Positions 15,149-52,730 of a stretch of 64,000 bases of DNA are shown piece after piece; the first letter of the stretch is position 1; every line of letters starts with the position of its first letter. The DNA is from Chaetoceros tenuissimus (taxonomy: Eukaryota > Bacillariophyta > Thalassiosirophyceae > Chaetocerotales > Chaetocerotaceae), in the NCBI GenBank assembly GCA_021927905.1, contig BLLK01000038.1:2356001-2420000 (forward strand), given 5' to 3'. Position numbers and translations under genes: made by a program. Below the pieces are notes generated by a model, which saw nothing but the letters and a program-made list of their open reading frames with translations, was not told the origin of the DNA and did not search any database.

Positions 15149-18100
15149 CTATGTATCTGTAGTAGATGGGGCATCAGATGGACTCGAACTTGCCTTTGAA
15201 GATGGAAGCTCGGTGTTAACAGCACTAGGTGGAGATGAAGATTGCTCAGTAGGTAATTCTGAAGAAAGATCCGTAGGTCCATGAGATGGTAATGAAGAAG
15301 GACTAAATGAGACTTTTACGCTTGGTTTATAAGAAGGTTGCGATGAAGGTGAAACCGTTGGTTTGCTTGTTGACGGCGTAGTTGTCGGAAAAGAAGACGG
15401 AAAGCCAGTTGGAAGCATGGATGGTTTGCCACTTGGGCTCAGAGATGGTAATGGAATCGGATTGCTGGAAGGACTTTGGGTCAAACTAATGGTTGGTGAT
15501 TCAGAAGGGCTAGACGAAGCAGCTTTGCTTGGTCCACTTGAAGGTTTCAAAGATGGTAAATGTGTAGGAGTGATCGTCGGCAATGAGGAAGGTGAAGTAA
15601 CTGGATGGATAGATGGACTCGCGGAAGGTCTAGAACTCGGTTGATGAGAAGGTTTCGAGGACGGGAAATCGCTCAAAACTTTGCTTGGTCCACTTGAAGG
15701 TTTCAAAGACGGCGATTGCGTTACAGTAATCGTCGGTAGTGACGAAGGTGAAGCAACTGGATGGATAGATGGACTCGCAGAAGGTCTAGAACTCAGTTGA
15801 AAAGAAGGTTTTGAAGAAGGTAAATTGCTTAGATTTTTTGTTGGAGAAATGGATGGTGTGGAGGATAGACCGTCGCTTGGACTAACTGAATGTTGCAAGG
15901 AAGGCGAAGAAGAAGGCGCTTCTGTTAATTTCACAGTAGGTTCAACTGAAGGGAATGAGCTTGATTCAAGTGATGGAATGTTTGAAGGTAAAGCGAACGG
16001 ACTACTCGATGGTGTTTGAGAAGGTCTACTTGTTGCAGATAATGAGGGTCCAGAAGACGGAAGTCCACTCAGTTCAAAAGAAGGAGCAACAGTTGGACTA
16101 TCTGTAACGGCTCGAGAAGGAATATTCGTTGGCTGGTTCGAAGGTGTTGATGATTGTGCTTTCGAAGGACTATTCGATGGTACAGTAGTTACTGTTTCTG
16201 TCGGTGCTTCAGAAATATCTTTACTTGGACTGCTTGAGTGTGACAATGAAGGTTTGAGAGTTTCACTTTCAGATGGCTTTAAAGTTGGTAATGCTGAGGG
16301 GTTAGCAGATGCATATATTGATGGTAGCTCTGAAGGCTTCATACTGGGACTATTTGTCGAAGGTAGAACAGTTGGATTTGATGAGGAGCTAGCAGAAGGG
16401 TTTTCGGTAACGGCTCGAGAAGGAATATTCGTAGGCTCAGTCGAAGGTGTAGATGAATGTACTTCAGAAGGACTATTCGATGGTACACCAGTTCTTGTTT
16501 CTGTCGGTGCTTCAGAATCATCTTTGCTTGGACTGCTTGAATGGGACAATGAAGGTTTGAGGGTTTCACTTTCAGATGGCTTTAAACTTGGTAATGCTGA
16601 GGGGTTAGCAGATGCATGTATTGATGGTAGTTCTGAAGGCTTCATACTGGGACTATTTGTCGAAGGTAGAACGGTTGGATTTGATGAGGAGCTAACGGAA
16701 GGCTTCTCGGTTCTCAATACACTGGGCATAGATGATGGCTCAAAAGTTGAGGATGTCAATGGAGATTTAGTTGGACTAATAGTAGAAGGCAGAACAGAGG
16801 GAATCAAAGACGGATTCATAGAGTCTTGATCTGAGGGAGCATTTGATGATGCCAAAGTCGGTGGGCTTGATTTTGATTTACTTGGAGCATTTGATTCATC
16901 AACTGATGGTCGTCCAGTTTCTTGTACCGATGGTGATGAAGAAGGGATCTCAGATTTGAACTCCGTAGGAGAAGAAGAAGTCGCTTTCGAAGGATTCTCC
17001 GATTTTAGTAAGCTTGGTTTCATCGACGGTAGTATTGTCGGTGACATAGTTACATCCTCAGTAGGATCAGCAGATATTCTCTTTGAAGGCGATTGAGAAG
17101 GACCCAGTGACTGCGCATCCGTAGGCTTCTCGCTACTAGATGTAGGATTATTTGAATTCGCAGTCGATGGATTGGAGGTAAAAGATGCCACAGGGGATCT
17201 ACTCGGACTATCCGTTGATGGAACATTAGAAGGGCTTGATGAGTGGGTGTTTGATGGATTATCACTACTCATAGTAGGTGCATTTGAATGGAAAGTCGAT
17301 GGACTTGAAGTAAGAGCTGCTACTGGAGCTCTGCTCGGACCATCAGTCGAAGGATGATGAGAAGGACTCGAAGAATTAGTCTCTGTAGGATTCTGACTAC
17401 TTTTCATAGTCGGTGCATTTGACCTTATTACTGATGGCTCTGAAGTCAACGACGCTACTGGTGATTTACTTGGACTATCTGTTGATGGAATAGTAGAAGG
17501 ACTAGAAGAATTAGTCTCTGTAGGATTCTGGCTACTACTCGAGGAAGGTGCATCCGACTTCATAGCCGATGGTTCGAAGGTAACAGAAGCTACTGGTGAT
17601 TTACTTGGACTATTAGTCGAAGGCTGCTGGGATGGACTGGAAGAAATTGAATCTGTAGGATTGTGGCTACTACTCGAGGTAGGTGCATTAGACTTCAAAG
17701 CTGATGGAGCCGAAGTTACCGTGGCAGCTGGAGCTGTACTTGGACTATCAGTCGAAGGCTTTTCAGATGGACTATAAGTTACAACCGCTGTAGGAATTTG
17801 ACTTCTACTCGAGGTAGGTGTATTTGAATGCAAAGTAGACGGTTTTGAAGTGACAGAATCTACCGGAGCTTTACTTGGATTATCTGTCGAAGGCTTTTCA
17901 GATGGACTTGAAGAATTAGCATCTGTAGGATTCTGGCTGCTATTCATAGTAGGTGCATCAGACTTGCTACCAGACGGATTTGAAGTAACAGCTGCTACTG
18001 GTGATTTACTTGGACTATCCGTCGAAGGATGCTGAGAAGGAATAAACGTGATAGACTCTGTAGGATTATGACTACTGCTCGAGGAAGGTGCATTTGACTT

Positions 18101-20403
18101 CGTAGCGGATGGAGCTGAAGTATTTGAAAGTACCGGAGCTCTACTTGGACTATCAGTCGAGGGCTGCTGAGAAGGACTCGAAGAAATAGCCTCTGAAGGA
18201 TTCTGACTACTTATCAGGGTAGGTGAATGTGACTTCAAAGCTGATGGTTCTGAAGTGATTGAAGCTACTGGTGCTTTACTTGGACTATCAGTTGAAGGCT
18301 TTTCGGATGGACCAGAAGACTTACTGCTATTGGAAGGGGCATCTGACTTAAAAGTAGATGGACTAGAAGTAAGAGCTACTATTGGTGCTCGGCTTGGAGT
18401 ATCAGTAGAAGGCTCTTCAGAAGGACCAGAAGACTTCGTCTCTGTAGGATATTGACTACTGCTTGAGGTAGGTGCATTCGATTTCAAAGCTGATGGTTCT
18501 GCAGTAATTGAAGCTACCGGAGCTCTACTTGGACTATCTGTCGAAGGTTGCTGGGAAGGACTAGAAGTAAAAGTCTCTGTAGGATTCTGACTATTTAACT
18601 GGGTAGGTGCATTCGATTGAATAGCAGATGGTAATGAAGTGATAGAAGCTACCGGAGCTTTGCTTGGACTATCCGTCGAAGGCTGCAGAGAAGGTTGAGA
18701 AGAATACGTTTCCGTCGGATTTTGACTTCTACTCATAGAAGGTGAGTTTGACTTTGTAGATGATGGAGATGAAGTGATAAAAGCTACAGGAGCTTTACTT
18801 GGACTGTCAGTCGAAGGTTTCTGAGAAGGACTCGTTGAATTGCTCTTCGAAGGCTTCTCTGTGATTAGAGTCGGTTCATTAGACTGAACAGACGATGGTG
18901 TTGAGCTTGGACTGTTGCTTGGACTATGAGTCGAAGGTAATGAAGAAGGACTTGAAGATAGTTGCTCTGAAGGACTATTTGAATCGGCATTTGTTGGATT
19001 TGCAGAATTTTCTTTTGAAGGGGAAAATGTAGGCAATAGACTCGGAAAGGCCGATGAGGTTGTCGTAGGTTTCATACTTTGGCTTGCTGTTGGAGTATCA
19101 GATGGCTGACTTGATTCCTTTTTGGATGGATATATACTTTCAAAGACTGATGGCATTCCAGTTTCAGTTTTACTTGGATGTTCAGTTGGCAATGAACTCG
19201 GTTCCAATGACCGTGTACTGGTAGGACTGACTGAAGGCAAAGCAAAAGGTGACGAGGAAGGTAATAATGTAGGCAATTGTGTATTCACTTGTTCAATTTT
19301 CCATACATCAGGTGTTATTAGACTAGATCTTTGGTACAATCGAAGTGCTGCAAATCTTCTATCCTCTTCCACCCCGATGAAAACGTGTGTGCTTGAAGTC
19401 TTTCTTACTATAGCTCCATTTTCAAATCCAAAGAATAATGTGCTTGAGTCTCCATTACAAAGCCCTAGCGTGAGTCGACGATACATTGCTTTCATACACA
19501 GTGGTGATTGATTTGAAGAAGCCCCAGAAAGTTTTATTTCACCATTGTCAGTGAAGATCCAAGTTTGTTTGTAGAGTGCATTAGTTTTGCACGGCCGAAT
19601 ATGAATATCTGATCCAAGATGCCTTTCATAAGCAGTTAGACACCATTCTTCATTTGGAGAATAGAAAGCAAGAGATGATTTTATGAATACATCTTGGTTC
19701 AGCGGAGCAGTTGTTGACAATTCCCTTTCCAAATTATCCAATGACGATGCATTGACAGGTGTCTCTTCTAGACTCCTGTCATCTCTTTTCGCTCCAAAAA
19801 CCTTGTTCTGTGATAATAATGAGGCGGAAGGAGGGAGAGTGAGATTGATGAAATAATTTTTTATTCCGTTTGAGAGTTTAAGAATAATATCATGATACAA
19901 GTTCGCAGACCTCTCTACTTATTCCTTCCTGTTTTTATTTTTTCAAAAAGTCTTACCTGCTGAGAGTCTATTATTTCTTGATGAGATGTCTGCGAGGTAA
20001 TTACATGTCTAGAAGTCGAGGTCTCCTCTTTAGAGGAAATAATCTCGTTACTTATAGTGCTCCTCTCCCCTTCCTCTGTATTTTTCTCCAATACAGAAAC
20101 GAATGTTTCTTTTGTTTCTTTTGCTGCTTCTTCCGCTTTGAAAACACTATCTTTTCTCGGGTCTTCAATTCTCGGTGACCGATCTATTCCATAGTAGTTC
20201 GTGAATGAATATGCAACAAGTGAAGGAATGAGAAGCATCCATGGCAGTATCCTTCTTCTTCTATGCTCTGCACTTTGATTATCTCCATTCAGATTGGAGG
20301 AAGATGTATCAATAGGAGGATCAACATGTGTTGTTGGGTCTAGAAACAATCCTTCTTGATCGTGATCTAAATGGAATGGGTGATCGCTGTTGTAGTCCAA
20401 CAT
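15149..20403 (-). CDS. Giant type II membrane protein: ricin-B-like lectin domain plus P-S-rich repeat stalk
   Basis: Two exons, 20403-19957 and 19807-15149, with a 149-bp intron (GTAAGA ... strong pyrimidine tract, ATCACAG), phase 0; about 1,701 aa. Residues 1-51 are cytosolic (ends RRRRI), followed by one membrane span (about 52-69, LPWMLLIPSLVAYSF). An acidic linker leads to a beta-trefoil/ricin-B-like module (about residues 195-320; WCLTAYERH, YKQTWIF, LCMKAMYRRLTLGLC, WKIEQ). The remaining about 1,380 residues are P-S-rich pentad-like sequence (PSxxPS) ending near ASSSPSDAPS. It includes 13 tandem units of about 45 aa. Proteins of this style are typical of diatoms and thought to be wall- or secretory-pathway-associated. 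An in-frame ATG at 19900 lies inside the intron and is not the start. Confidence 0.85.
17090..18840 (-). repeat. Array of about 13 tandem ~135-bp (45-aa) repeats
   Basis: Each unit encodes roughly T-D-S-P-S-[KR]-[AS]-P-V-A, then TSxPS, xKSxAPT, SSQNPTE and SSSPSxxPS. One unit near 18330 is shortened by about 7 residues. Unit-to-unit divergence is moderate, so the array is not brand new. Two further internal duplications lie outside it: about 300 bp (the pair around 16120-16730) and about 175 bp (the pair around 15500-15830). Confidence 0.85.
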
Positions 20404-34162: not shown

Positions 34163-37100
34163 TTAATCAGTGCTATCCTCCAATACGACGCGAACAACAT
34201 AAACGTCCTCTATAGATTTTGATGCTCTTTCCTTCAATTCATTCTCTTGTTCTCTTGACAATGTTCCATCGGGAAAGGTTGTTCCATCCCAGTAGATCTC
34301 GCCTTTAACTCTACTACTAGGTACATCAATGGATGTATTTGGGAGCTCAGACTCTTCAACATCCTCCACATAACTGGCCATTCCACCAAACTGTACGTCT
34401 TTCAAAGATTGATTTTTCTCCAAACATTCAATCCAAGTATCAACATTTCTTGATCCAACAAGGTCAGTATTACACAATTTTAGCCATTCAATCTTACAAT
34501 CATCTTGAGCGAGAAACTTTGCAAGTCGTTCACCGCATTCTTTACCACCAACTTCTCCACCTATGCATGTCCCAAATATATAAAGTGTCTTGAGATTGGT
34601 TGATGTATTCTCAAGCCAATCAAGTAATGCATCCATTGCAACTCTTCCATGAGGACATTCGTATACATTGAGTTCCTCCAATCCAATTGGTAAGTGATGA
34701 AGCACATCAGAAACATCTTCTGCTTTGAAATCGCTCAAGTAATCAATTTCCATACTCTTTGTGGCGGAATACTTCATAGATTCATTCCATTGGTCCTTAT
34801 TTTCATTCAGAAAACATGTAATAGCAAATGAATCCATAGATTTTGATACTCTTTCTTTCAATGTCTCCGTTTTTCCTGTTGACAATGTTCCATCAGGAAA
34901 TGTTGTTCCATCCCAGTAGATCTTGCCTTTAACATCAGAATGAAGTATTTCACTGATATCAAGTTCATCCTCATCAGGATCAGGTACATCAATAGATGAA
35001 TTCGGGAGCTCTCTAAACATCTTTACATAAATATTCATTCCAATCAAGGTTACATCTTTCAAAGATTGATTTTTCTCCAAACATTCAATCCAAGTATCAA
35101 CATTTCTTGATCCAACAAGGTCAGTAGCACACAATTTTAGCCATTCAATCTTACAATCATCTTGAGCGAGAAACTTTGCAAGTCGTTCACCGCATTCTTT
35201 ACCACCAACTTCTCCACCTATGCATGTCCCAAATATATAAAGTGTCTTGAGATTGGTTGATGTATTCTCAAGCCAATCAAGTAATGCATCCATTGCAACT
35301 CTTCCATGAGGACACTTCCATATCCTAAGTTCCTCCAATCCAATTGGTAAGTAATGAAGCACATCAGAAACATCTTCTGCTTTGAAATCGCTCAAGTAGT
35401 AATCTCTTATTTCCATACTCTTTGTGGCGGAATACTTCATAGATTCATTCCATTGGTCCATATTTTCATTCAGAAAACATGTAATAGCAAATGAATCCAT
35501 AGATTTTGATACTCTTTCTTTCAATGTCTCCGTTTTTCCTGTTGACAATGTTCCATCAGGAAATGTTGTTCCATCCCAGTAGATCTTGCCTTTAACATCA
35601 GAATGAAGTATTTCAGTGATATCAAGTTCATCCTCATCAGGATCAGGTACATCAATAGATGAATTCGGGAGCTCTCTAACCCTCTTTACATAAATATTCA
35701 TTCCAATGAAGGTTACATCTTTCAAAGATTGATTTTTCTCCAAACATTCAATCCAAGTATCAACATTTCTTGATCCAACAAGATCAGTTTGACGCAATTC
35801 AAGTTCTTCGATCTTACAATCATCTCGAGCGAGAAACTTTGCAAGTCTTTTACCGCATTCTTTACCGCCAACTTCTCCACCTATGCATGTATAAGATATA
35901 TCAAGTTTCTTGAGATTGGTTGATGTATTTTCAAGCCAGTCAAGCAATGCATCCATTGCAACTCTACCATGAGGACATTTCTCTATCTTGAGTTCCTCCA
36001 ATCCAATTGGTAAGTGATGAAATATATCAGCAACATCTTGTGCTTTGAAATAGCTCAAGTGATCAAAATCCATACTTTTCGTGACTGAATGTTTCAATGC
36101 ATGCAAAGTCTCATTCCAGTTGTCTTTATTTTCATCATCATAAGCAAATTTGAGACATGCTTTTGTAGATGCAAATACACCACGTACATTATTGTTCAAT
36201 TCCTCATACATTTCATGATTTTCATGGTTCTTCAGAGGTTCAAGTTCCATAGCATTACCACTTCGACCGACTACTGCATTAAGAATATTTTTGCGGTCGT
36301 CTTCTCTAGAAGCTTTTGCATTTTGAATCGAAACGGACAATGATTTGAACAAGCGTTCTCTTGGAAAATGTGTCAAAGACTCTTTGTAACCACTCGCATA
36401 ATTTGTAGGGCCACCTTCAACAAAACCAACTACAGACTTATGAATAGTTTTACCCCGAAAATCTTTGAATTCATGCTCATGATAAGTATAGACTGCAAGC
36501 ACACCATCCATGCCTTTCTGCTTTGATAAGATCAAAGTCAAGTACAACTCGTACATGCACCACAATCGACTATACACTTGATTTTTTACATCTAGAATGG
36601 AAATGACACGGAAATTTGCAATATTCATGGCTTTGGCAAAGGCCGAATCAGCTGGATTGGATGTAATCTCAGATTGGAGATCATGTTGGTTGTTTGCAAA
36701 TGCACATATCCAAATAGGCGTATCTTCAGTCATTCCGCCACCACTTGCATCTGGATCAAAATCATCTGCAGAATCATTATAAACCATTTCACCACCTCTT
36801 GCCCTAACCCTACTAACATTGTGGTTATAATCAGGATCATTAATTTCAAAATCCTTCACCATCTGCTCCAAACATGCCAATGTATGTAGAAACGTTTCAC
36901 CCCAATAGTGACTAACGAAATGTAAGCAAAGAAAGTCAGTCATAACGTATTTTTCATAGGATATATTCATTCAATTTGCAGAGAAAAACTTACCTTACAA
37001 ACCAACGAGGTGGCTGAGTACCTTTTGTGGATGGCAATGTTTCGACAAAAGACTTTTTTGAATGTTCAGTAAATGGTTTGGTGATGTAATCGTTGACATC

Positions 37101-37598
37101 ATACAATGTAGCATTTTCAAGAGTGATTGCTTCTTCTTCTCCAGTTTCCTTCCCATCTTTATAGATTTTGCGAGTCCATTTTTCTTCCTCGCATCTGCGT
37201 TTGATCAAAGGGATGATGGCTCTAAGTTGTCGAAGGGTAATGCCTCTGACTTCAGTATCCATGGATCGGTAACGAGACGGATCAAAAGAATCGACAAATT
37301 CATGTTTGGCTTTTGAAGTAAGCTTCACACCTTCTCCAAGTCTTTCGATTTCTACAGTGTCTAATCCTGTATGTTCATTGAATACTCGTGAGTTTGATAC
37401 ATAGGACGCATCTCTTGGTTGACTCATGTCCACGAATTCACCCTCATAATTCTCATAACCTTCAATCAATTCTTTGAAGTCTTTGTGAAATTTATGTACA
37501 TTAGCACATTTCCGGCTTTCTTCTTGGGAAGAATGGTCTGAAGTGTCTTTGACCTGCGGTTCCCAAAATGTATTCTCGAAGCAGCAAAGGATTGTCAT
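34163..37598 (-). CDS. TIR-like domain plus leucine-rich-repeat protein
   Basis: Two exons, 37598-36994 and 36911-34163; 82-bp intron (GTAAGT...GTTAG); 1,117 aa. The splice gives RWFV-SHYWGETF, a motif common to a large algal family. Residues about 197-345 look like a divergent TIR-type fold: strand FVSHYWGE, then PIWICAFANNQHDL, then RVISILDVKNQVYSRLWCMYEL. There S-x-x-W-C-x-x-E (S316 to E323) resembles the alpha-D/catalytic Glu motif of plant TIRs. From about 480 to the end are LRR blocks of about 220 aa, three in all, the third shorter. Each holds strands such as LPIGLEEL, STNLKxL and CKIExL and an acidic loop. No nucleotide-binding (NB-ARC) domain was seen. The N-terminal 195 residues are unassigned. 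Candidate intracellular sensor; function inferred. Confidence 0.8.
34190..36080 (-). repeat. Three near-identical ~660-bp LRR blocks
   Basis: The same word CCATACTCTTTGTGGCGGAA recurs with a spacing of 663 bp (34750, 35413), and the related start at 36070 is 657 bp further. Blocks 2 and 3 are almost identical over hundreds of bases; block 1 is slightly more diverged. The period is a multiple of three, so the frame is preserved. Confidence 0.9.
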
Positions 37599-39912: not shown

Positions 39913-40201
39913 ACGTTGAAATACCTCTCCTTTGGTAGCTACTTGCCCTTAAGCTATGTAGTATATAATACTCTGTAGCTAGATGAAGTACTTGGTCTTC
40001 TATAGTTTTAGTTTACTCGATACAGAAACGGATGGTTTCTATTTAATGAGATGATGCTGCCGTTACGTGCTGCTTCATCTCCTCCACACATTCTTCATTC
40101 TGAGCCTTTACTGCCTCCGCGTACGTTTTCTTTTGGCGTTCTACAATTTTAGCATGATTGCTACTACCGTCATTGGTTGCCTTCCTTTTATTATTTCCAA
40201 C
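39913..40201 (-). repeat. 3' LTR of the copia element
   Basis: 289 bp; no mismatch to 45631-45919 found by eye. It includes the last about 53 codons of the pol ORF (stop at 40043). It abuts the upstream region of the second 7TM gene. Confidence 0.92.
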
Positions 40202-43200
40202 GCGCTCCTTTGGGTGAGTGTACCCTGTATATGATACGCTTATATGGTCCCATCCCATTATTGCTCTTCTAAAGTTCGTAAAGCCCTTACCCATCAATGG
40301 CTTCGTGTTGTAATCGGCAATCATTTCGTCAGTCGGACAATATACAACTTCAATATTTCCATTCTTGATTCTATCCGTTGACCAGAATTGTTTAATTGCT
40401 ACATGCTTCATATTCGACGTACACGAATCCCGACCATTCTTCAAGATCTTAATTTCTGACTCATTATCCTTTGCCAACACATTACTCTCAAGTTTGTATC
40501 CTTGTTCTTCCATGAACATTTCGAAATAAATGTTCTTCGGCAATCCCTCACTTGTTCCCACTAATTCGCAATCAGTCGAACTACGTGTATTCATCTTTTG
40601 TTTGGATGCTTTCTGATCTAGTACACCTGTACCCATCGTGATTATTTGCCCTGTATGTCCTCTCATATCATTGTGGACAGCATGAGCCGAATCCGTCATG
40701 GTTAGCATGTGCAACAAGTCATCAGCCCCTACGGTCCTGAGATCGTCTTGAGTAGTCTTTATCCAGCTCATCATTCGCATAAACTTGTGCCAATCTTCCC
40801 TATTCGGTTCATGCACCCTAGTCATCAAGAAAGTGTTAGTGAACTCCAAGTCTACTCTACTCCTTTTCATAGCCCACGCTACTTTCATTATGTATTTCAA
40901 AAATATGTCGGCTTTCTCTCTATTCAGCTTTGGTGATTTCTTGTTCACTTTGAATAACCACTTCGCATGTGGTGTCGTGTACTTTCTATTTAGTACCATA
41001 CCTAATTCCTCCTCAAGATCCTTGATCATTTGCTTGATATACGGCACCGTACCGACGTCTACTTTTCCATCTCCTCTAAAGTAAAAATCTATGCCCAGGA
41101 ATTCAAGCTTCTTCCCTCGTTGTATTGTCAGTCCTGGGAATCGTTTGTTGATCTTGTCGATGAGGTCGGTGACTGCCTTAGTTTGTCCACCAACAATGTT
41201 ATCATCCACATACCACCCAATTGTGAGTTGTTTCCCGTCTACAGTTTTATTCGCTACACACTTGTCTATCTTGTTTATTTTGAACCCTTCTTGCATCAGC
41301 ACATCAGCAAACATGTTATACCACAATAATGCCGACTCAATCATACCATAGAGAGCCTTCAAGATCCTACAGTATAACACCTTCTTCCCTTTCTCGTATC
41401 TTACGCTTTCAGCAAAATCTGGATTAACTTCCACCATGATATCTACAAATTGTCCTTCGAATTTCAACAGTGCAAACTTGTCATCCGGTAAGTCGGCATG
41501 TAAGTAAGCACCTGGAACATCGAATACCGCCACATCTCTTTTCTCGAACGCAAAAATGGTTACTAATGCTATCAGTGATTCGACTGACATGGTTGATGAT
41601 GATGCTTCTTCTCTGGGAACAAACTTCCTTTGTCCACTTCCATCACTGCAACACCTACCCTTGATTTTTCCATCTCTTTTCTCTTTAATTAAATTTATCG
41701 CTCTCAATGCCTTTGCCTTCTGTTCCGCAGTCAAAGAGTCGTAGTCAATTACTCCCAGTACACACATGTCGTTCAGCTGCTTGTATTCCTTTATCAAAGC
41801 CGCGACTGCTCGCTCCTGAAATATCTTAATTCCTTCAGTTGCTGTCATCTGGTTGAACATGTAGTCTACTGCCCTTGAATACAATTGTCTTGTAGTAGTA
41901 TGGTTGAGGTTCTCAGCTAAGTTTGAGAAGTTGAACTCCTCTGTCTGCATGTAGCTTTTTCCATCAGTACTGCCTATGTTGTTCAAAGGATCTTGCGGTG
42001 GTCTCCTAGCCCTTTGGGATCTCTGCGGTCTTTCTTTTGCACCATTACTATCTGTAGTTTCATTGCTATCTTCTCCTTCGTATTCTGATCCGGTATCCTC
42101 GTCACTTGACTCTACGCTATTATCTTCTACATCCGCATCGTCTTCGCTCCTTGGTTCAACTTCCTCGCTCCTTGGTTCAACATCCTCGCTCCTTGGTTCA
42201 ACATCCTCGCTCCTTGATCCTTCATGCTCATCACTAGTATCTTCGCTCCTTTCTTCTTCCTCCGAAACATCTACTTCTGAATCTTCAGATAGTGATTCAT
42301 CATCATCTACGTCCGAAGCATGGTAGGAGCTGTCATCAGGTCCGTCTGGTTCTTCTTCACTGCTAGTGGATGATACTGTGACATCATCATACACGTAAAC
42401 ACTACCATCATCTGAATCTTCCTCATCTATGTCAGTATCATCAATAGTCATGTTGTGTCCAGGTGACAAGCCAAGTTTAGGGATTCCATCCTCATCTAAG
42501 AAATCCGCTTTCTCTTTCGCAGCTAGCTCGTGTACTCTGTCAATTACCTCATCAGTGATTGCTAATTCATCCCATTGATGGCCATGTATTCTCTTTCCGG
42601 TGTTCAAAGACATAAAGTAGTACCCTCCTTGGGAATTGGAAGGTCGTAGTGCTATTCCGCGTATGGATCTTGGTTGTCTATTATTCTTCGACTCTCTGTA
42701 CACCAAACAATATGCTCCGAAAGTAACTTCGAGGTTACCAGCATCATGTGGGCCTCGACCTTCTATTACAGCTCCAGGGCTTATGTCTTTTGCAATGCTT
42801 CCTTCTCTTAGATGTTGATTGATCCAGTAGAATACATCGATGATGTTTTCGTCTACCATGATCTTTGGAACTTGTTTATATGGTAGCTTGTCCCAGTAAC
42901 ATCTCTGTCTGTCTTTTACAAATCTGATTTCTCTCTCAGCAAAAGGATTATGTTCGTTTGCAGCACAAGTTTCAACTGTTGCATTCACCTTCCCTTTAAT
43001 TCTCTCAAACTCATTATCTCCATTCACTAGTTCGACGGTAAAGCCTCTATTGTTGTGTAATGCTATTGCGTCGTTTAATGCCTTCACTATTTCATCTGTT
43101 GGTCTGTAGTATGTTATTCTTCCTGTTGCACTTATTTTTCGTTTGTTAAATGTGACTCCAATGATGAAGAGGATATTTCTGCCCCTTATGATGAGGTATG

Positions 43201-43234
43201 GGGCATAGTCACTATAGAAAAAGTCTATGTCCAA
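40043..43234 (-). CDS. Retrotransposon pol: integrase (part), reverse transcriptase, RNase H
   Basis: 1,063 codons from the first ATG; the frame is open upstream to 43312 and overlaps gag. It starts in the integrase core region and continues with an acidic Ser/Glu/Asp-rich linker holding the repeated word SEDVEPR. The reverse transcriptase follows, with VFDVPGAYLHADLPDD and the active-site box WYVDDNIVGG. RNase H is typical of diatom copia elements: TDSAHAVHND, NTRSSTDCELVG, KDNESEIKILKNGR, KHVAIKQFW and YCPTDEMIADYNTKPL. The C-terminus runs through the start of the 3' LTR. Catalytic residues look intact, so it may be active. It lies +1 relative to the gag frame. Confidence 0.9.
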   Translation of the reverse strand: MDIDFFYSDYAPYLIIRGRNILFIIGVTFNKRKISATGRITYYRPTDEIVKALNDAIALHNNRGFTVELVNGDNEFERIKGKVNATVETCAANEHNPFAEREIRFVKDRQRCYWDKLPYKQVPKIMVDENIIDVFYWINQHLREGSIAKDISPGAVIEGRGPHDAGNLEVTFGAYCLVYRESKNNRQPRSIRGIALRPSNSQGGYYFMSLNTGKRIHGHQWDELAITDEVIDRVHELAAKEKADFLDEDGIPKLGLSPGHNMTIDDTDIDEEDSDDGSVYVYDDVTVSSTSSEEEPDGPDDSSYHASDVDDDESLSEDSEVDVSEEEERSEDTSDEHEGSRSEDVEPRSEDVEPRSEEVEPRSEDDADVEDNSVESSDEDTGSEYEGEDSNETTDSNGAKERPQRSQRARRPPQDPLNNIGSTDGKSYMQTEEFNFSNLAENLNHTTTRQLYSRAVDYMFNQMTATEGIKIFQERAVAALIKEYKQLNDMCVLGVIDYDSLTAEQKAKALRAINLIKEKRDGKIKGRCCSDGSGQRKFVPREEASSSTMSVESLIALVTIFAFEKRDVAVFDVPGAYLHADLPDDKFALLKFEGQFVDIMVEVNPDFAESVRYEKGKKVLYCRILKALYGMIESALLWYNMFADVLMQEGFKINKIDKCVANKTVDGKQLTIGWYVDDNIVGGQTKAVTDLIDKINKRFPGLTIQRGKKLEFLGIDFYFRGDGKVDVGTVPYIKQMIKDLEEELGMVLNRKYTTPHAKWLFKVNKKSPKLNREKADIFLKYIMKVAWAMKRSRVDLEFTNTFLMTRVHEPNREDWHKFMRMMSWIKTTQDDLRTVGADDLLHMLTMTDSAHAVHNDMRGHTGQIITMGTGVLDQKASKQKMNTRSSTDCELVGTSEGLPKNIYFEMFMEEQGYKLESNVLAKDNESEIKILKNGRDSCTSNMKHVAIKQFWSTDRIKNGNIEVVYCPTDEMIADYNTKPLMGKGFTNFRRAIMGWDHISVSYTGYTHPKERVGNNKRKATNDGSSNHAKIVERQKKTYAEAVKAQNEECVEEMKQHVTAASSH

Positions 43235-45239
43235 TATCTCTGTAGGATGGTGGCGTACTAATTCTGATGGTAAAGCAGTTCTGAGTATCTTGTTCTTTGT
43301 TCGCTCGCTTTCTTACTGTTTTGCCTACGATGAGTTGCTCGGCCGATCCCCCATAAATTGCTCTTGCTCTAGTAACGTCCTCTGCTGTTACGGGGGCATT
43401 AATAATACTGTTGCCTTGTCCACTTAAAATGCGCTTAAATTCTGCATCAGAAGGCCAACCCATCCTTCCTTGAAGTATTCTCGCCTTCTCCGCTCCTTCC
43501 ACTTCAGCGTTGGAGAAGAATCTCTTGTTAGCTTTAACAGTTGAAAAGAAGAGGTGATGGAAGGAAGTAGATGTGTGAATCCTGTTTAGGTTACTACTAC
43601 TGTTGACATCGAAACCGTAGAGACCATTGCTTAATTGTTTGAATTCCAAGATGTAATCGTCGGAGATAAAAACAAAGAAGCTGCTGGAATGTTGGGAGTC
43701 TTTGAAAACTCTGTAATACCGCTCCAGATCAGCCATACTAAGGATATTAGCCAGAGACTTGCTATTGAAGTAAGCAGTCAAAGCTGGTAACAACTTAATA
43801 TGACCTCTCTTGTCATAGTCCATAAATCCTCCATTCGTATGTCCTCGGATTGGCAAACACACACCTACTCCTACCATCAACCCCCTGTTAAAGAAAGAAG
43901 AGAAAGTTGAGCCGGTATCGACAATGATAAGCGACTCAGGGAGTCGTGGTTGCGACTGGACAAAAATGTAGCCAAATTGTGAGAGAATGATATAATTACC
44001 TGTGGTGCCATTCTCATTCGGACAATCATTTGCATAATGTCCAGGTGTGTTGCACCTGTAGCAGGTAATGTCAGGGCGTAGCGGTCCTGTTCTACCTGCT
44101 ACCGCCTGACATGTCGTTGCACCTCCGCTCTGTGCAAATTGCATACCGTTGCGTCCTGCTCCTCTGTTCCTCTGCTGATTATTACTTCTATCGCCATTGT
44201 TGTTGTTTCCACTCTTCCAATTTGTCATCATGTGGATTGCTGCAGCCATTGTCGTAGGATAATTGTCCTGTCCTTGCAATAGACTATTGTGTAGATGATC
44301 CCAAAGTCCTCCAAATCTTTTCACATCTGCATTCATGAGGAATGCCATCGCCGCATACTTCTGTCTTACATCTTCATCTGTGATGGTTGGGTCCTTAGCT
44401 TTCTCTTTCTTCAATAGGTCTTCATGGTCGACAATATCAACACCTGCTTGAGCCACCAATTCCTGTGCATTCTCAAAATCCGCTTGGTAATCCTCCAGAG
44501 GCTTACCCATCTGCTTGGTCTTATAGAAATCTCTGGTTGCTGTGAAAGCTGTGTGAATAGGGTTCGAGGATGTTGTCACGCCATGCACAACTCTTTTGAT
44601 GCTCTTCAATAGCCAAATAGCGTTGTAGTTGTTTTGCTGTATCTCAAAATCATGCTCTGCTCTCAAGTTCTCGACGAGGGCTTTGGTACACTGGCCTAGG
44701 ATTATGCCCCATAACTTAGCCATGTTCTCTTGCAACAGGCTCTTCTTCTTAGAAAATTGGTTCATCTCCTGTGCGTATAGAGCATTCGCAGGCGCCATTG
44801 CCATGCTGTTCTGCTGTACTCTAAGGGTCCTCTCGGCTTCGGTCTCGTTCTCTCCTGGTTCAGTTTGCACAATCTGCAAGTAAGCTACAATCTTACTAAT
44901 GTCTGGCAGCTCATTCCTGAGGAGAACCAGCGGGTCCTCTAGCTCTGACACCGCTCTAGATAGCACGCTTGGGCTCTTGAAGTTTACCAGAATATACGCA
45001 GCAAATTTCTTGATGAAGTTTGCCGTGTTTTGGTTGCTGCTCTCTGCCTTTGTTCCCATGACCGGTAACTCTTGGATCTGTCCTTTGAAGTTCCTGAATG
45101 CATTGCCTCCGCCAAATCTGTTGTTGTTTCTCTGTCTACCATCGATACCTGGGCCATTCACGTTCCCAGACTGGTCTTGTTGCTGCTGATTCTCTGCAGC
45201 CGGTTGCTGCTGCTGCTGCTGATTTCCACTTTCACTCAT
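43212..45239 (-). CDS. Retrotransposon gag and aspartic protease
   Basis: 675 aa. A Gln/Asn-rich N-terminus and a long helical capsid-like region are followed by a zinc knuckle CYRCNTPGHYANDCP and the retropepsin motif LIIVDTGSTFSSFFN. A pre-integrase zone ends near RMGWPSDAEFKRIL. The frame stops at 43212 after overlapping the pol frame by about 100 bases. The next domain, EILDIDFFYSDYAPYL, is in the +1 frame, so a frameshift is needed to make the whole polyprotein. Confidence 0.88.
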   Translation of the reverse strand: MSESGNQQQQQQPAAENQQQQDQSGNVNGPGIDGRQRNNNRFGGGNAFRNFKGQIQELPVMGTKAESSNQNTANFIKKFAAYILVNFKSPSVLSRAVSELEDPLVLLRNELPDISKIVAYLQIVQTEPGENETEAERTLRVQQNSMAMAPANALYAQEMNQFSKKKSLLQENMAKLWGIILGQCTKALVENLRAEHDFEIQQNNYNAIWLLKSIKRVVHGVTTSSNPIHTAFTATRDFYKTKQMGKPLEDYQADFENAQELVAQAGVDIVDHEDLLKKEKAKDPTITDEDVRQKYAAMAFLMNADVKRFGGLWDHLHNSLLQGQDNYPTTMAAAIHMMTNWKSGNNNNGDRSNNQQRNRGAGRNGMQFAQSGGATTCQAVAGRTGPLRPDITCYRCNTPGHYANDCPNENGTTGNYIILSQFGYIFVQSQPRLPESLIIVDTGSTFSSFFNRGLMVGVGVCLPIRGHTNGGFMDYDKRGHIKLLPALTAYFNSKSLANILSMADLERYYRVFKDSQHSSSFFVFISDDYILEFKQLSNGLYGFDVNSSSNLNRIHTSTSFHHLFFSTVKANKRFFSNAEVEGAEKARILQGRMGWPSDAEFKRILSGQGNSIINAPVTAEDVTRARAIYGGSAEQLIVGKTVRKRANKEQDTQNCFTIRISTPPSYRDIGHRLFL

Positions 45240-46378: not shown

Positions 46379-47388
46379 ATGAAGGATGACATCAGTGTTC
46401 TGAATTTCAACTTCAAAGTACCGAACCCAAACGATGGAAAGAATCATTGGAAGTTGGAAGTAAGTTTCTTACTGGCTGCCTTGTTCTATTTTCCTTTGCT
46501 TGTTGCTGCTTTCCATATCATTATTCTTATTCTTGCTCTGCTTCTTCTTACTCATTCTTCTGTACATATAGCTATCGCAAAGAAAAAGTCATTGAATATG
46601 TCAACAGCATTCAACCGACCATCATTGGAACGCAAGAAGGAGTCCAATCAGTCCTAGAAATATTTCACAAAGGCATTGGACAACTCAAATACGGTAGCTT
46701 TGGAGTTGCAAGAGATGCAAAGAGTTTCTTCTCGACGAAACCCAATGAACACAATCAAATCTTTTATGATACATCCAAGCTTGAGTTTATAACAGGAGAT
46801 ACATTTTGGTTAGCTGAAGATATTTCCAAACCACCGAAAACTCCAGGGTTCTGTGGCAAACATAATCGTATCGTTACATGGGCGAAATTTCAATTGATTT
46901 CTTCCAAGCAAATCTTGTTTGTATTCAATACACATTTGGATAATAAAGATATTGAAGATTTGCTATGTGAGACGAGAGCAAAGGCTATGGACTTGTTGAT
47001 TGCACAAATGAAGATTATTACTCAACAAGAGGACGATGCTTCTGCTGCTGCTACATCGATTATTGTCATGGGAGACTTTAATTCGAAAAGAGATGCGTAT
47101 CCTTATCAAACTTTGATTGAAAAGAATGGATTCTCAGATGCATGGATTACAGCGGAAACAAGAGAAGGAGATGTTGCATACTCGTTTCATGATTGGTTGG
47201 GCGTCAAGAATCCACTTGAAAATGAAGATGGACTTGAACCTGGAAGTAAGCAGATTGACTTTATCACCTACTATCCAAAGTCGATCCAAGTTCAAAAGAC
47301 AGCTGTAGTGACTGAAAAGTGGGAAAGTCATGGGGAAGATCGATATTTGTCAGATCACTTTCCAATACTTTCCTACTTGAGTATTTAA
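46379..47388 (+). CDS. Endonuclease/exonuclease/phosphatase-family protein, gene A (no signal peptide)
   Basis: Exon 1 46379-46452 and exon 2 46572-47388; 296 aa if the donor GTTGGA at 46453 is used. DNase-I-like fold: VLNFNFKVPNPNDGKNHW, GTQEG (metal-binding Glu), FNTHLDNKD, VMGDFNSKRDAYPYQTL, DFITYYP and SDHFPILSY (catalytic Asp-His). The protein starts directly at the catalytic domain, so it should be cytosolic. Compared with gene C it has 7 extra bases at the donor, which puts the good GTAAGT (46460) out of phase with exon 2 and predicts an early stop if used. Expression of full-length product is therefore doubtful. Convergent with gene B. Substrate unknown. Confidence 0.8.
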
Positions 47389-47604
47389 AAACATTAAGTA
47401 ATGCTAGAGCTAGCTAGGATCTAAAAATATAAGCTGACATCTTATTGATTTGACTTTGCATTGCAAAATCTTGTAGAATTATGAATTATGTATTGGCCGT
47501 TCGACACTGACGCCGAGTCTAAATGGCCTTTTCACGTCAAATGTGAATGAAAATGATACATGGTAACTTTCTGAATTCAAAATCCCTCCCAATGATATCG
47601 GTAT

Positions 47605-49000
47605 TTATAAAGTTAAATAGGATAAAATTGGAAAGTGATCTGAATAATATCGATCTTCGCCATAGCGTTCCCATTTTTCTGTAATGACTGATGTTTTTCG
47701 AACAGAGATAGAGCTTGGATAATATGTAATGAAATCAATCTGTTCACTGCCAGGATCCGAATTCATACAATGTAGCTCTAGAGGATTTGCTACTCCTAGC
47801 CAATTGTGAAAACTATATGCAACTTCTCCTTCTTGACTTTCTGCTTCGGTCCAAGCATCCCTGAAACCGTTCTTCTCAATCAAGGCTTTGTGTGGATACG
47901 CATCTCGTTTCGAATTGAAATCTCCCATCACAATGACAGGAGTATCAGGACATTGTGATGTAATACTCTTCATTTCTTTGATTAACAAGTCTATGCCTTT
48001 GACTCTTGCTTCACTATTACCATTCTCGATATCTTTATTATCCAAATGTGTATTGAATACAAAGAACTCTTGACCTGTACTTTTTAGTTTGAATTTTGCC
48101 CATGTAACTATTCGTCGATGATTTCCATGGAACCCAGCAGATTTACCAGGTTCGTTTGGATTCTCTGATAACCAAAAGTTATTACCAATCATGAATTCTA
48201 CTTTTGATTTATCATAAAAGATTTGATTGTGTTCATTGGGTTGTAGTGCAATCAGTCGCTTTGGATCTCTTGCAGCACCTATAAAGTGAATGCAACAAAG
48301 ATTAGAGTTGGATTTCTCATTTGTACAAAAAGCATTCTTTTTTCATTTATAGATAGGTTTTTAAATCAACATTTCTTACTACTCACCAAATCGACCGTAG
48401 TGATGTTCACCTATTCCTTCTTGTAGCTGCTCCAAAACAAAACTGACACCTTCCTGCGTCCCCAGAATGGTTGGTTGAATCTTTTGAATCAATTCAATCA
48501 CTTTTCCTTTTCGATATCTACAAGAAAATAAGCATATTCTGCATATTGTTGCACACAACAAACATTACAAATGAATTGACTTACTTCCATGCGTTCTTTC
48601 CGTCTGTAAAGTAAGAGGGAACTTTTAAATTAAAAGTCAATACTTTGATTTCATCATCTGATAAAGTAGAGTTCTCATATCCATTCAAAGAGCTAGTAGA
48701 TTGTGAGTCCATTTGTTTGTACAATTCCGTTTCCGATTCATCATGTAAATGCAGTATTTCATCAAATGCCGATAGATCGCTAGTGGATACTGCATGCAGT
48801 TTCCTTGTTGTTCCTCTCAGATGCGATGTCTATGTGAAGAATGTAAGTTAGCATGTTACCCGAATGCAAAAGATTTCATACAGCAATACGAATGAAAGAC
48901 GTGACTAGGGACGACATACCTGTTTGGATTCTATTTTCTCTCCGTTTGTGAATGTAGTCACCAGTTGTAGAGTTGTGAGGATGAATAAAAGTAATTTCAT
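47605..49000 (-). CDS. Secreted endonuclease/exonuclease/phosphatase-family protein, gene B
   Basis: Four exons: 49000-48920, 48829-48585, 48517-48387 and 48278-47605; 376 aa. Exon 1 encodes a signal peptide (MKLLLFILTTLQLVTTFTNG) and ends phase 0 at GTATGT. Exon 2 holds a Ser/Glu-rich propeptide-like stretch and the domain start IKVLTFNLKVPSYFTDGKN. Exons 3-4 hold PTILGTQEG, the short FG-AARDPKR junction, FVFNTHLDNKDIE, VIVMGDFNSKRDAYPH, AYSFHNWLG, QIDFITYYP and SDHFPILSY. All catalytic positions of the fold appear present. Probably an extracellular or secretory nuclease or phosphatase. Near-identical to gene D. Confidence 0.88.
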
Positions 49001-50097
49001 CGTTTTGAAACAATTTTCAATATGTATTGGGTTTTGTTACTGATCTTCTAATTGAATTCTCTTTTGTATAGCTTCGTATAAGTTTGTAAAAGTGTTCGGC
49101 TATAACTGATTCGTGGAGGAATAATAAATAATGAGACTTCCTAGAATGAGAAGGCAAAGAAAATGTGCATCAAGGAGATGTGACAAGAAATTGACAGGTC
49201 TTGTGATGATGTAAATCTAATGAAATGATCAAGAGAATTGAACTAAAATTTTTATATTTTGATGGACGGGTGATGAATGTGAATGAGTACAATCAATTTA
49301 TTCTTTCGAATATTCAGGGAATCTTTTGAATCTAAACGTAGAATTAGATTTGTGAGATGGTTCGAATATGTATTTTTGAGGCCATTTATCATCTGCCACG
49401 TGTCTATTGGCATACCTACGAAGCATCGTACTTTCATCCATTACATATCTTTCTCATGTTGAGCGCCGCGCATCGCAATACACAATATCACAATACAGCT
49501 ACAATACAGTATTTCTTACACGTCAACTGGTGTCAATAGGACAATTTGACATTTTCGCATTTACAAATTTAGATTCCATTTGATTTGCAATAAATCTACT
49601 CCGGATACTCTACGAGAGCGCTAGTCTAGTCTTATTAAATACAGACACACGAGAAATCATTAAAAAAGACTAGTTCCAATCTTACAACTATTTAATAAAA
49701 TTTAGAATTGATGCGGACAAATAGATTTGTGCAGAATCAAATTAGAAAACTCAGGTTTCATTGTTGGCTTGTAGGTGGACCCAATTTTTGATATAGAATA
49801 AGCATAAGGGGTACTTTTGTTATCCATTTTCTGTGATTGAAGAGAAGGGTACAACTACCAGTAAGTAGTACGCACTGTGAACTGTGAACAAGAAATGTTT
49901 TTGTCTGAGAATCATTATGATGTCACTGATATGTCAAAGATAGGCTCTTCTGTTTCTTCTCGCGACATTGTATTTCAAGCGGTTGCATGTATGTTTTATG
50001 TTTTGTACGAGTGTTAAAAAATATGACATAGGTGAAGCTAATAATCATACGAATACTACTTGACTACTTTTATTCAATAAACTGCCAATAAAGTATC
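49001..50097. other. Intergenic region between EEP genes B and C (unit junction)
   Basis: About 1.1 kb with no gene seen. It contains the promoters of both divergent genes, the end of duplication unit 1 and about 400 bp not shared between units. Confidence 0.45.
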
Positions 50098-51126
50098 ATG
50101 AAGGATGACATCAGTATTCTGAATTTCAATTTTAAAGTACCGAACCAAAATGATGGAAACAATCATTGGAAGTAAGTGCGTTAGTACTGGCTGGCTGCGT
50201 TCTTGTTCTATTTTCCTTGCTTGTTGCTACCCATTATTCTTGCTTGTAGCAAATTCTTCTTATTCTTATTCTTATTCTTATTCTTGTTCTGCTTCTTCTG
50301 TACCTACAGCTATCGCAAAGAAAAAGTCATTGAATATGTCAACAGCATTCAACCGACCATCATTGGAACACAAGAAGGAGTCCAATCAGTCCTAGAAATA
50401 TTTCACAAAGGCATTGGAGAACACAAATACGGTAGTTTTGGTGTAGCTAGAGATGCAAAGAGTTTCTTCTCTACAAAACCCAATGAACACAATCAAATCT
50501 TTTATGATAAATCCAAGCTTGAGTTTATAACAGGAGATACATTTTGGTTAGCTGAAGATATTTCCAAACCACCGAAAACTCCAGGGTTCTGTGGCAAACA
50601 TAATCGTATCGTTACATGGGCGAAATTTCAATTCCTTAAAAGCAAGAAAATCTTGTTTGTATTCAATACACATTTGGATAATAAAGATATTGATGACTTG
50701 TTATGTGAGACGAGAGCAAAGGCTATGGACTTGTTGATTGCACAAATGAAGATTATTACTCAACAAGAGGACGATGCTTCTGCTGCTGCTACATCGATTA
50801 TTGTCATGGGAGACTTTAATTCGAAAAGAGATGCGTATCCTTATCAAACTTTGATTGAAAAGAATGGATTCTCAGATGCATGGACTACAGCGGAAACAAG
50901 AGAAGGAGATGTTGCTTACTCGTTTCATGATTGGTTGGGTGTCAAGAATCCATTTGAAAATGAAGATGGACTTGAACCAGGATGTAAGCAGATTGACTTT
51001 ATCACCTACTATCCAAAGTCGATCCAAGTTCAAAAGACAGCTGTAGTAACTGAAAAGTGGACAAGTCATGGCGAAGATCGATATCTGTCAGATCACTTTC
51101 CAATACTATCTTACATGAGTATTTGA
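50098..51126 (+). CDS. Endonuclease/exonuclease/phosphatase-family protein, gene C (no signal peptide)
   Basis: Exon 1 50098-50171 with a clean GTAAGT donor and exon 2 50310-51126 after CCTACAG; 296 aa. It has the same DNase-I-like motifs as gene A (GTQEG, FNTHLDNKD, VMGDFNSKRD, SDHFPILSY) and about 10-15 substitutions relative to it, for example Gln-Leu to Glu-His before KYG. No N-terminal targeting signal. The intron contains a TTCTTA microsatellite at about 50254-50285. Intact form of the A/C type; convergent with gene D. Confidence 0.88.
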
Positions 51127-51328
51127 GAAGATAAAGTAATGCTAGAGCTAGCTAGGATCTAAAAATATAAGCTGACATCTTACTTCAGGTTGCATCGCAA
51201 ACTTTTAAAATTATGAATTACGTAATGACCGTTCGGCACCAAATCGAAAAGGCCTCTTCACACGTCAAATATGTGAATATGAAAATGTAACTCCCCAAAT
51301 TCAAAATCCCTCCCAATGATATCGGTAT

Positions 51329-52730
51329 TTATAAAGTTAAATAGGATAAAATTGGAAAGTGATCTGAATAATATCGATCTTCGCCATAGCGTTCCCATTT
51401 TTCTGTAATGGCAGATGTTTTTCGAACAGAGATAGAGCTTGGATAATATGTAATGAAATCAATCTGTTCACTGCCAGGATCCGAATTCATACAATGTAGC
51501 TCTAGAGGATTTGCTACTCCTAGCCAATTGTGAAAACTATATGCAACTTCTCCTTCTTGACTTTCTGCTTCGGTCCAAGCATCCCTGAAACCGTTCTTCT
51601 CAATCAAGGCTTTGTGTGGATACGCATCTCGTTTCGAATTGAAATCTCCCATCACAATGACAGGAGTATCAAGACATTGTGATGTAATACTCTTCATTTC
51701 TTTGATTAACAAGTCTATGCCTTTGACTCTTGCTTCACTATTACCATTCTCGATATCTTTATTATCCAAATGTGTATTGAATACAAAGAACTCTTGACCT
51801 GTACTTTTTAGTTTGAATTTTGCCCATGTAACTATTCGTCGATGATTTCCATGAAACCCAGCAGATTTACCAGGTTCGTTTGGATTCTCTGATAACCAAA
51901 AGTTATTGCCAATCATGAATTCTACTTTTGATTTATCATAAAAGATTTGATTGTGTTCATTGGGTTGTAGTGCAATTAGTCGCTTTGGATCTCTTGCAGC
52001 ACCTATAAAGTGAATGCAACAAAGATTAGAGTTGGATTTCTCATTTGTACAAAAAGCATTCTTTTTTCTTTTATAGATGGTTTTCATATAAACTTTTCTT
52101 ACTACTCACCAAATCGACCATAGTGACGTTCATCTATGCCTTCTTGTAGTTGCTCCAAAACAAAACTGACACCTTCCTGTGTCCCTAGAATAGTTGGTTG
52201 AATCTTTTGAATCAATTCAATCACTTTTCCTTTTCGATATCTTCAAGATTTCATATCTAAATGAGTATATTCTGCATATTACTGCACACAACAAACATTA
52301 CAAATGAATTGACTCACTTCCATGCGTTCTTGCCATCAGTGAAGTAAGAAGGAACTTTTAAATTAAAAGTCAATACTTTGATTTCATCATCTGATAAAGT
52401 AGAGTTCTCATATCCATTCAAAGAGCTAGTAGATTGTGAGTCCATTTGTTTGTACAATTCCGTTTCCGATTCATCATGTAAATGCAGTATTTCATCAAAT
52501 GCCGATAGATCGCTAGTGGATACTGCATGCAGTTTCCTTGTTGTTCCTCTCAGATGCGATGTCTATGTGAAGAATGTAAGTTAGCATGTTACCCGAATGC
52601 AAAAGATTTCATACAGCAATACGAATGAAAGACGTGACTAGGGACGACATACCTGTTTGGATTCTATTTTCTCTCCGTTTGTGAATGTAGTCACCAGTTG
52701 TAGAGTTGTGATGAATAAAAGTAAATTCAT
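51329..52730 (-). CDS. Secreted endonuclease/exonuclease/phosphatase-family protein, gene D
   Basis: Four exons: 52730-52653, 52562-52318, 52240-52110 and 52002-51329; 375 aa. Each intron position equals that of gene B. The signal peptide is one residue shorter (MNLLLFITTLQLVTTFTNG). The donor of exon 2 is GTGAGT instead of GTAAGT, and the exon 3 acceptor is GAAG instead of GTAG; both are usable. In the last exon I see only about two residue changes from gene B (C-P-D to C-L-D, T-S-V to T-S-A), far fewer than between A and C. Confidence 0.88.

Follow-up and report, generated by a model that had tools for sequence, protein, structure and literature searches.

Plant TIR-NB-ARC-LRR receptors (TNLs), such as RPP1, RUN1 and RPV1, carry a TIR domain and a C-terminal array of leucine-rich repeats (LRRs). 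In the TIR domain of these receptors a glutamate is found in a WCxxE context, and their LRR surface is fast-evolving. SARM1 also has a TIR domain, which is partnered with ARM and SAM domains and not with LRRs. Other active enzymes lie outside the TIR models: the TIR-like NADases of the DUF4062 family, bacterial Swarozyc and human TEP1, have a conserved glutamate, according to the available part of PMC13174449. Among the stramenopiles, the ROCO-LRR proteins of brown algae have positively selected sites on their concave face and are read as candidate immune receptors in the available part of PMC11378527. Here, we analysed by computation a gene of the diatom Chaetoceros tenuissimus, which is located on the minus strand at positions 34163-37598 of a stretch of 64,000 nucleotides (contig BLLK01000038.1, positions 2,356,001 to 2,420,000). 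This whole stretch will be referred to as the window, and all positions given for the gene are on the minus strand. We propose, with a probability of about one half, that the encoded protein is an intracellular sensor, in which a highly diverged domain of the TIR superfamily, joined to three ribonuclease-inhibitor-like LRR modules, would use residue Glu323 (E323) to cleave NAD+ or a nucleotide related to it. The protein is a candidate immune-type sensor of a single-celled alga.

The window protein resembles the plant TNLs in having a TIR-like domain and a C-terminus made of LRRs, in the WCxxE context of its glutamate and in the fast evolution of its LRR surface, and the TIR domains of TNLs are among its top structural matches. 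It differs from them in that it has no NB-ARC, its TIR sequence is too diverged for Pfam, and its LRRs match ribonuclease-inhibitor-like and NLRP proteins. With SARM1 and SARM1-like proteins it has the predicted TIR fold in common. The DUF4062 NADases provide a precedent for an active family that is invisible to Pfam TIR models, but DUF4062 (PF13271) had no match in the window protein or in the family members scanned; a separate DUF4062 place is found in the genome at C38:39243-39527. The brown-algal proteins, as described in the available part of PMC11378527, combine a ROC-COR GTPase with LRR exons that are shuffled, whereas the window gene encodes a TIR-like domain and has its LRR part in one exon. 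A ROC-COR GTPase had no Pfam match in the window protein.

The TIR-like domain and its family

The coding region consists of exon 1 (36994-37598) and exon 2 (34163-36911, stop codon included), which are separated by a GT-AG intron of 82 nt (36912-36993). The spliced open frame encodes 1,117 residues; it contains HYWGE, IWICAFANNQ, ISILDVK and LWCMYEL, and its residue 323 is a glutamate. The intron adjoins the SHYWGE codons and, as read by eye, paralogue L002 has an intron at the equivalent site. The original prediction, drawn from the letters of this DNA, had described a spliced gene with these motifs and E323 and a protein lacking NB-ARC; removal of the intron confirmed the former, and a Pfam scan of the protein, without an NB-ARC match, the latter. 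The whole-genome search located NB-ARC at one place, elsewhere (C21:884774-885427). In the window protein, Pfam gave no match to a kinase domain, and no transmembrane-like stretch was found (top 19-residue hydropathy mean, 1.09). Its matches to the Pfam models PHL and Slx4 were below the curated cut-offs and were taken as chance.

The gene does not stand alone: the genome contains dozens of members of its family. A genome search with the domain gave 25 matches, which were grouped as 17 places of the window gene's own group and one of a second type, which carries tetratricopeptide repeats (TPRs). A further copy beside L001 brings the own group, hereafter the LRR group, to 18 places. The LRR module was located in 13 of them and was not seen in L010, L012, L013, L014 and the first L001 copy. 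Five LRR-group copies lie on contig C14, at about 42-81 kb, where L001, L006 and L015 carry frame breaks or stops. A TPR-type query gave 69 matches, corresponding to 31 domain places, while the remainder were TPR-only or LRR-group places; 21 TPR-type sequences were retrieved from these approximately 31 places. The TPRs are certain in L016 (Pfam TPR_12, E 1.9e-86) and probably present in the remaining cousins, judging from matches to the TPR part. Profile comparison of six close LRR-group members with the TPR type indicates that the two are homologous (Prob 99.0, P 3.6e-18).

The TIR-like domain, together with a conserved C-terminal stretch, comprises residues 191-424 (36245-37028, interrupted by the intron), the domain proper being approximately residues 197-424. 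An alignment of 29 family members has five nearly invariant columns, W71, Q79, R119, W121 and E125. The W and the Q of the motif WICAFANNQ (36686-36712) are nearly invariant, and the motif RLWCMYE (residues 317-323; 36548-36568) holds the candidate catalytic glutamate E323 (codon 36548-36550), which is E125 of the alignment and which aligns with a glutamate invariant in nine genuine TIR domains. The glutamate is present in 27 of the 29 members and is replaced by aspartate in L008 and L011. When four unaligned members are read by eye (L006 and L015, Glu; L013, Ala; L014, Gln), the count becomes 29 of 33, fragments beyond these 33 members being excluded. The alignment leaves out L006, L013, L014, L015 and the second L001 copy, which are incomplete or degenerate, as well as the TPR-type L022, L024, L026, L030 and L034, which are fragments or a near-duplicate. 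Altered or degenerate active-site motifs occur in paralogue pairs at C13:1184331-1199091 (L013 and L014) and at C34:1933081-1936683 (L009); in L009, the RxWC context preceding the glutamate is lost while the glutamate itself is retained. These paralogues are possibly inactive partners of active receptors.

To compare the family with TIR domains, a reference alignment was made of nine genuine TIR domains, eight bacterial and one from the diatom genome, in which the glutamate is invariant. Profile-profile comparison with this set gave Prob 55, P 1.2e-4 and a score of 34.4 for the 29-member family, and Prob 80, P 1.5e-5 and a score of 39.8 for 17 TPR-type cousins (L022, L026, L030 and L034 excluded). 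By comparison, the maxima for the family and for the cousins, respectively, were 17.9 and 18.7 over 100 column permutations, 11.1 and 12.0 for the reversed profile, and 19.2 and 17.7 for 21 unrelated open reading frames (ORFs) of the window, which are 21 of its 22 other ORFs, the repeat-rich one at 15149-19900 being excluded. With a set of 16 TIR domains, which adds 7 of the 14 diatom TIR_2 loci retrieved, the scores were 34.4 and 41.3, against 16.0 and 19.0 for permutations. In both alignments, and with both TIR sets, the family glutamate aligns onto the TIR glutamate. At the level of sequence profiles, the wider family is homologous to TIR domains. A PDB sequence search with the domain gave nothing useful. 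PADLOC gave no match at E up to 1 for three of four family members, and the single match of the fourth, L018, was to an unrelated family (E 0.043). The positive control, a TIR protein encoded on contig C18 of the same genome, matched 12 families.

This C18 protein is an ordinary TIR protein (C18:57259-57609; L017 1691-3850) with a 719-residue frame, and it is the best-scoring single TIR against the family profiles. Its N-terminus looks by eye like helical repeats, giving a SARM1-like layout. The Pfam model TIR_2 (PF13676) has 16 places in the genome, the C18 one included, of which 13 are above the cut-off, and none of the 16 coincides with the family places listed. The notion of a single ordinary TIR in this genome, derived from a PF01582 count, was dropped because PF13676 gave 16 places. 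Several of the TIR_2 loci L049-L062 have the form FMSHxWxGxQD...SKNCRREF, which is distinct from the window family.

The structure of the window domain was predicted with AlphaFold2 from 29 sequences (pLDDT 75.9, pTM 0.73). An insertion, residues 35-61, is for the most part poorly predicted in this model. E323 is located in helix 120-135, which follows strand 105-109. VIA-align was run on the Foldseek candidates (999 chains). Six entries were above Z 5, and all of them are TIR structures (ThsB twice, RPV1, RPP1, RPPT and SPARTA), with Z of 5.1-5.9 and a root mean square deviation (rmsd) of 4.2-4.7 over 103-121 residues; the next row has Z 4.3. The TPR-type cousin L027 gave a better model (pLDDT 87.6, pTM 0.82). 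Its top 15 Foldseek rows are all TIR-containing chains, with E of 0.054-0.21, and in lower rows TIR domains, deoxyribosyltransferases and unrelated folds are intermixed. In VIA-align, L027 matched the TIR domain of RUN1 with Z 7.3 (rmsd 3.4 over 119 residues) and SARM1 with Z 7.2 (rmsd 4.5 over 122). Of its 50 rows, 48 are TIR-containing chains or nucleoside 2'-deoxyribosyltransferases, including the short-Argonaute entry 8fex, which we take to be TIR-containing; the other two are unnamed proteins (7m5h and 1t1j). The TIR rows have Z of 5.5-7.3 and the deoxyribosyltransferase rows Z of 5.6-6.4, below the best TIRs. The presence of the latter beside TIR rows fits the kinship of the two groups that is mentioned in the available part of PMC13174449. 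The predicted structure is thus a flavodoxin-like alternating β/α fold of the TIR type, moderately so for the window domain and more clearly for L027.

Considering both the sequence signal and the predicted fold, the domain very likely belongs to the TIR superfamily. The protein is probably an NADase. The TIR assignment of the original prediction was made by motif; it now has a predicted TIR-like fold from the structure prediction and fold search that were suggested with it, profile homology, and E323 placed on the TIR glutamate, while it lacks a match to the Pfam TIR models. The architecture proposed there, a TIR-like domain with LRRs and without NB-ARC, agrees with the fold, the profiles and Pfam, and the LRR array following the domain is borne out by the results below.

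LRR modules and hypervariable strands

In the C-terminal part, one module is repeated three times in tandem. Module 1 consists of residues 465-682 (35471-36124), module 2 of residues 687-903 (34808-35458) and module 3 of residues 908-1117 (34166-34795). The spacing of the copies is 657 and 663 nt, and the reported stretches are 85-98% alike. Other open frames carry the LRR module once. In the window protein, Pfam found a single LRR_6 match, which is marginal (23.6 bits, the cut-off being 23.4). A profile of 11 modules matched, at E < 0.001 in the PDB, LRRC34 (1.4e-4), LRRC16A and two NLRP9 sequences (E 4.7e-4 for NLRP9), and it matched ribonuclease inhibitor with E 0.0042. Up to E 1, the profile matched 21 PDB sequences: 18 LRR proteins, among which we count tropomodulin and RanGAP, and three RlmN methyltransferases. 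By these matches, the C-terminal LRRs are of the ribonuclease-inhibitor-like class.

The modules differ mostly at particular positions of their strands, as in the strand LEELKIEKC of module 1 (35975-36001), which reads LEELRIWKC and LEELNVYEC in modules 2 and 3. A mask was defined that comprises the five non-framework positions, predicted to be exposed, in each of four LxxLxLxx strand motifs, and variability was compared over five modules, the three of the window gene and those of L002 and L048. Variable columns were 16 of the 20 marked versus 23 of the 97 others (Fisher p 3.4e-6). The chosen register was better than all 16 shifts of the mask, from -12 to +4, the best of which had p 0.025. The proportions of non-synonymous (pN) and synonymous (pS) change, pooled over ten non-independent pairs, were 0.426 and 0.38 at the marked codons and 0.055 and 0.189 at all others. 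Modules 2 and 3 have nine residue differences in the core, six of them on the mask, and several of the codon changes involve two or three bases. The codons of one strand are common to modules 2 and 3 and paralogue L002. Gene conversion between modules is not claimed, because a change in module 1 alone explains the shared codons equally well and a pattern search found the five known copies and two places with two mismatches, with no clear donor.

Proposed mechanism and alternative readings

Gene structure, TIR homology and fold, conservation of the glutamate, LRR identity, variable strands and family expansion were all computed, and from them we infer ligand binding, oligomerisation, NAD+ cleavage and defence. 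The concave faces of the LRRs would most likely bind a variable ligand, either non-self or related to stress, and several molecules would thereby be brought together, the LRR array performing the clustering in place of NB-ARC. E323 of the clustered TIR-like domains would then serve to cleave NAD+ or a nucleotide related to it, and this cleavage could either make a signal or deplete NAD+ and thereby shut down the infected cell. According to the available part of PMC13174449, activation of TIR domains needs oligomerisation, which forms the NAD+ binding site.

Several results weigh against the reading of the protein as an NAD+-cleaving sensor. Pfam TIR-clan models gave no match above cut-off in the window protein or in any of 14 members (0 of 14), and in a larger set of 27 members a single one had TIR_2, with E just 0.082; the domain is therefore classed as TIR-like, outside the Pfam TIR families. 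The six LRR-group members alone have no convincing TIR match, with P 0.036 against the nine TIR domains and P 0.012 against the 16 (score 22.0, permutations 19.2). Since these six are nevertheless homologous to the TPR-type cousins, the link to TIR runs via the wider family. When the comparison is made with TIR sequences one by one, most family scores overlap those of unrelated ORFs, with the clear exception of the diatom's own C18 TIR (23.6 and 27.6; P 0.0042 and 9.3e-4). Foldseek was non-significant for the window domain, with a best E of 0.63 and a single TIR chain among the best 50 rows, in 50th place. It was also non-significant for L027, the top 15 rows of which had a query TM of 0.23-0.35 and rmsd of 6.4-16.4. 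All VIA-align Z are below 8, a range in which, by the tool's own warning, a common arrangement may be enough; the superfamily assignment rests on fold and sequence signal together because such Z are indecisive alone. The glutamate is replaced in some paralogues, two of which (L013 and L014) were aligned by eye. Concerning the LRRs, a Pfam scan of ten paralogue frames gave no LRR match with E of 0.01 or less, and nine of these frames had no Pfam match of any kind. The mask was drawn up after the variation had been viewed, and in the held-out L009 pair, counted by eye, 5 of 12 differences were on the mask, where its area would predict about 2. The marked codons have elevated synonymous change as well, so that protein-level selection alone is no explanation and recombination or clustered mutation may contribute to the variation.

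The TIR-like fold could instead be a scaffold that assembles partners in the manner of adaptor TIRs, with no enzymatic role and a structural glutamate. The four paralogues with an altered glutamate (L008, L011, L013 and L014), all of them long open frames, and the loss of RxWC before the retained glutamate in L009 are in line with such a function. We regard it as doubtful, for the glutamate is in one of just five nearly invariant columns, and the best structural matches include SARM1, RUN1 and ThsB, TIR proteins that cleave NAD+, an activity given in the titles of some of the entries. The LRRs might diversify for sexual or clonal recognition, or for general protein interaction, and not for defence. 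A diatom precedent exists in Pseudo-nitzschia multistriata, where two LRR receptor-like protein kinases are sexually regulated and have Ka/Ks > 1, according to the available part of PMC5485032. Those proteins are receptor-like kinases, whereas the window protein has a TIR-like domain and neither a kinase nor a transmembrane segment, which makes this reading unlikely.

If the domain were nearer to nucleoside deoxyribosyltransferases than to TIR, it would be a nucleoside-processing N-glycosidase with free nucleotides as substrates and a role in stress signalling or metabolism. These enzymes do appear among the VIA-align rows of L027 with Z within the TIR range (rmsd 3.9-4.5 over 116-123 residues), but TIR rows come first in both L027 searches, and in the profile alignment with TIR sequences the glutamate is in register, the comparison having been made with the TIR side only. 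Fusion to hypervariable LRRs would moreover be odd for metabolism, and we know of no LRR or TPR partners of deoxyribosyltransferases; this reading is quite unlikely. It is very improbable that the resemblance to TIR arose by chance within the large alternating β/α fold class. The Foldseek E, the VIA-align Z and the missing Pfam match would allow it, but the independent profile signal is far above the permuted and unrelated controls, with the glutamate in register, and 48 of the 50 L027 rows are of only two kinds, TIR-containing chains and deoxyribosyltransferases.

The reading of the protein as an NAD+-cleaving sensor can be extended, tentatively, to the whole family. Diatoms might hold a large unrecognised NLR-like repertoire, with dozens of cryptic TIR NADase genes joined to hypervariable LRRs or TPRs and without NB-ARC. 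The LRR surface would diversify by module duplication and concentrated codon change, and this fast-evolving system would end in NAD+ cleavage and altruistic cell death.

Distribution, significance and neighbouring genes

Close relatives of the family were not found in viral contigs, in which 28 and 86 stretches matched the patterns and none passed tblastn, or in bacterial and archaeal genomes, with 41 and 36 such stretches, none of which passed; phages and plasmids gave no match. Similar proteins may occur in other algae and in dinoflagellates. Our literature search found no paper on the SHYWGE-type family, and the word "diatom" is absent from the main texts of PMC7075850 and PMC10732462. The unnamed eukaryotic clades in the available part of PMC13142454 may include the window family. 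Known kinds already include TIR domains, TIR-LRR receptors and, in algae, hypervariable LRRs. What was not found in the literature searched is a TIR-like family that is invisible to Pfam, has expanded in a diatom and is joined to hypervariable LRRs with no NB-ARC. Its existence suggests that standard domain models give too low a count of TIR-type genes in algae. Diatoms carry out much of marine photosynthesis, and a defence or death pathway in them would bear on blooms and their viruses. The combination of a TIR-like domain and hypervariable LRRs in a diatom makes a question raised in the available part of PMC13142454 testable in a tractable alga.

The N-terminal region of the protein, residues 1-190 (37029-37598), starts with MTILCCF and has no domain match. 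A Cys-Cys-Phe near the N-terminus is seen in several members, as MTILCCF (37578-37598 in the window), MYCCF, LFSCCF and LACCF, at loci including L003 and L009, and is perhaps a candidate lipid-attachment site.

The host genome has 41.0 Mb in 68 contigs. The silicon transporter model PF03842 has 11 matches in it, all above the cut-off and the best with 705.6 bits, in agreement with a diatom. Rfam gave no match within the 64-kb window. Other frames of the window were read by eye. Two adjoining minus-strand frames at 40043-45239 resemble a copia-type retroelement, with zinc-knuckle and reverse-transcriptase-like parts. Three similar frames at 46447-52087, two of them nearly identical, resemble hydrolases of the endonuclease/exonuclease/phosphatase type. 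The frame at 15149-19900 has 1,583 residues and consists mostly of short repeats rich in proline and serine.

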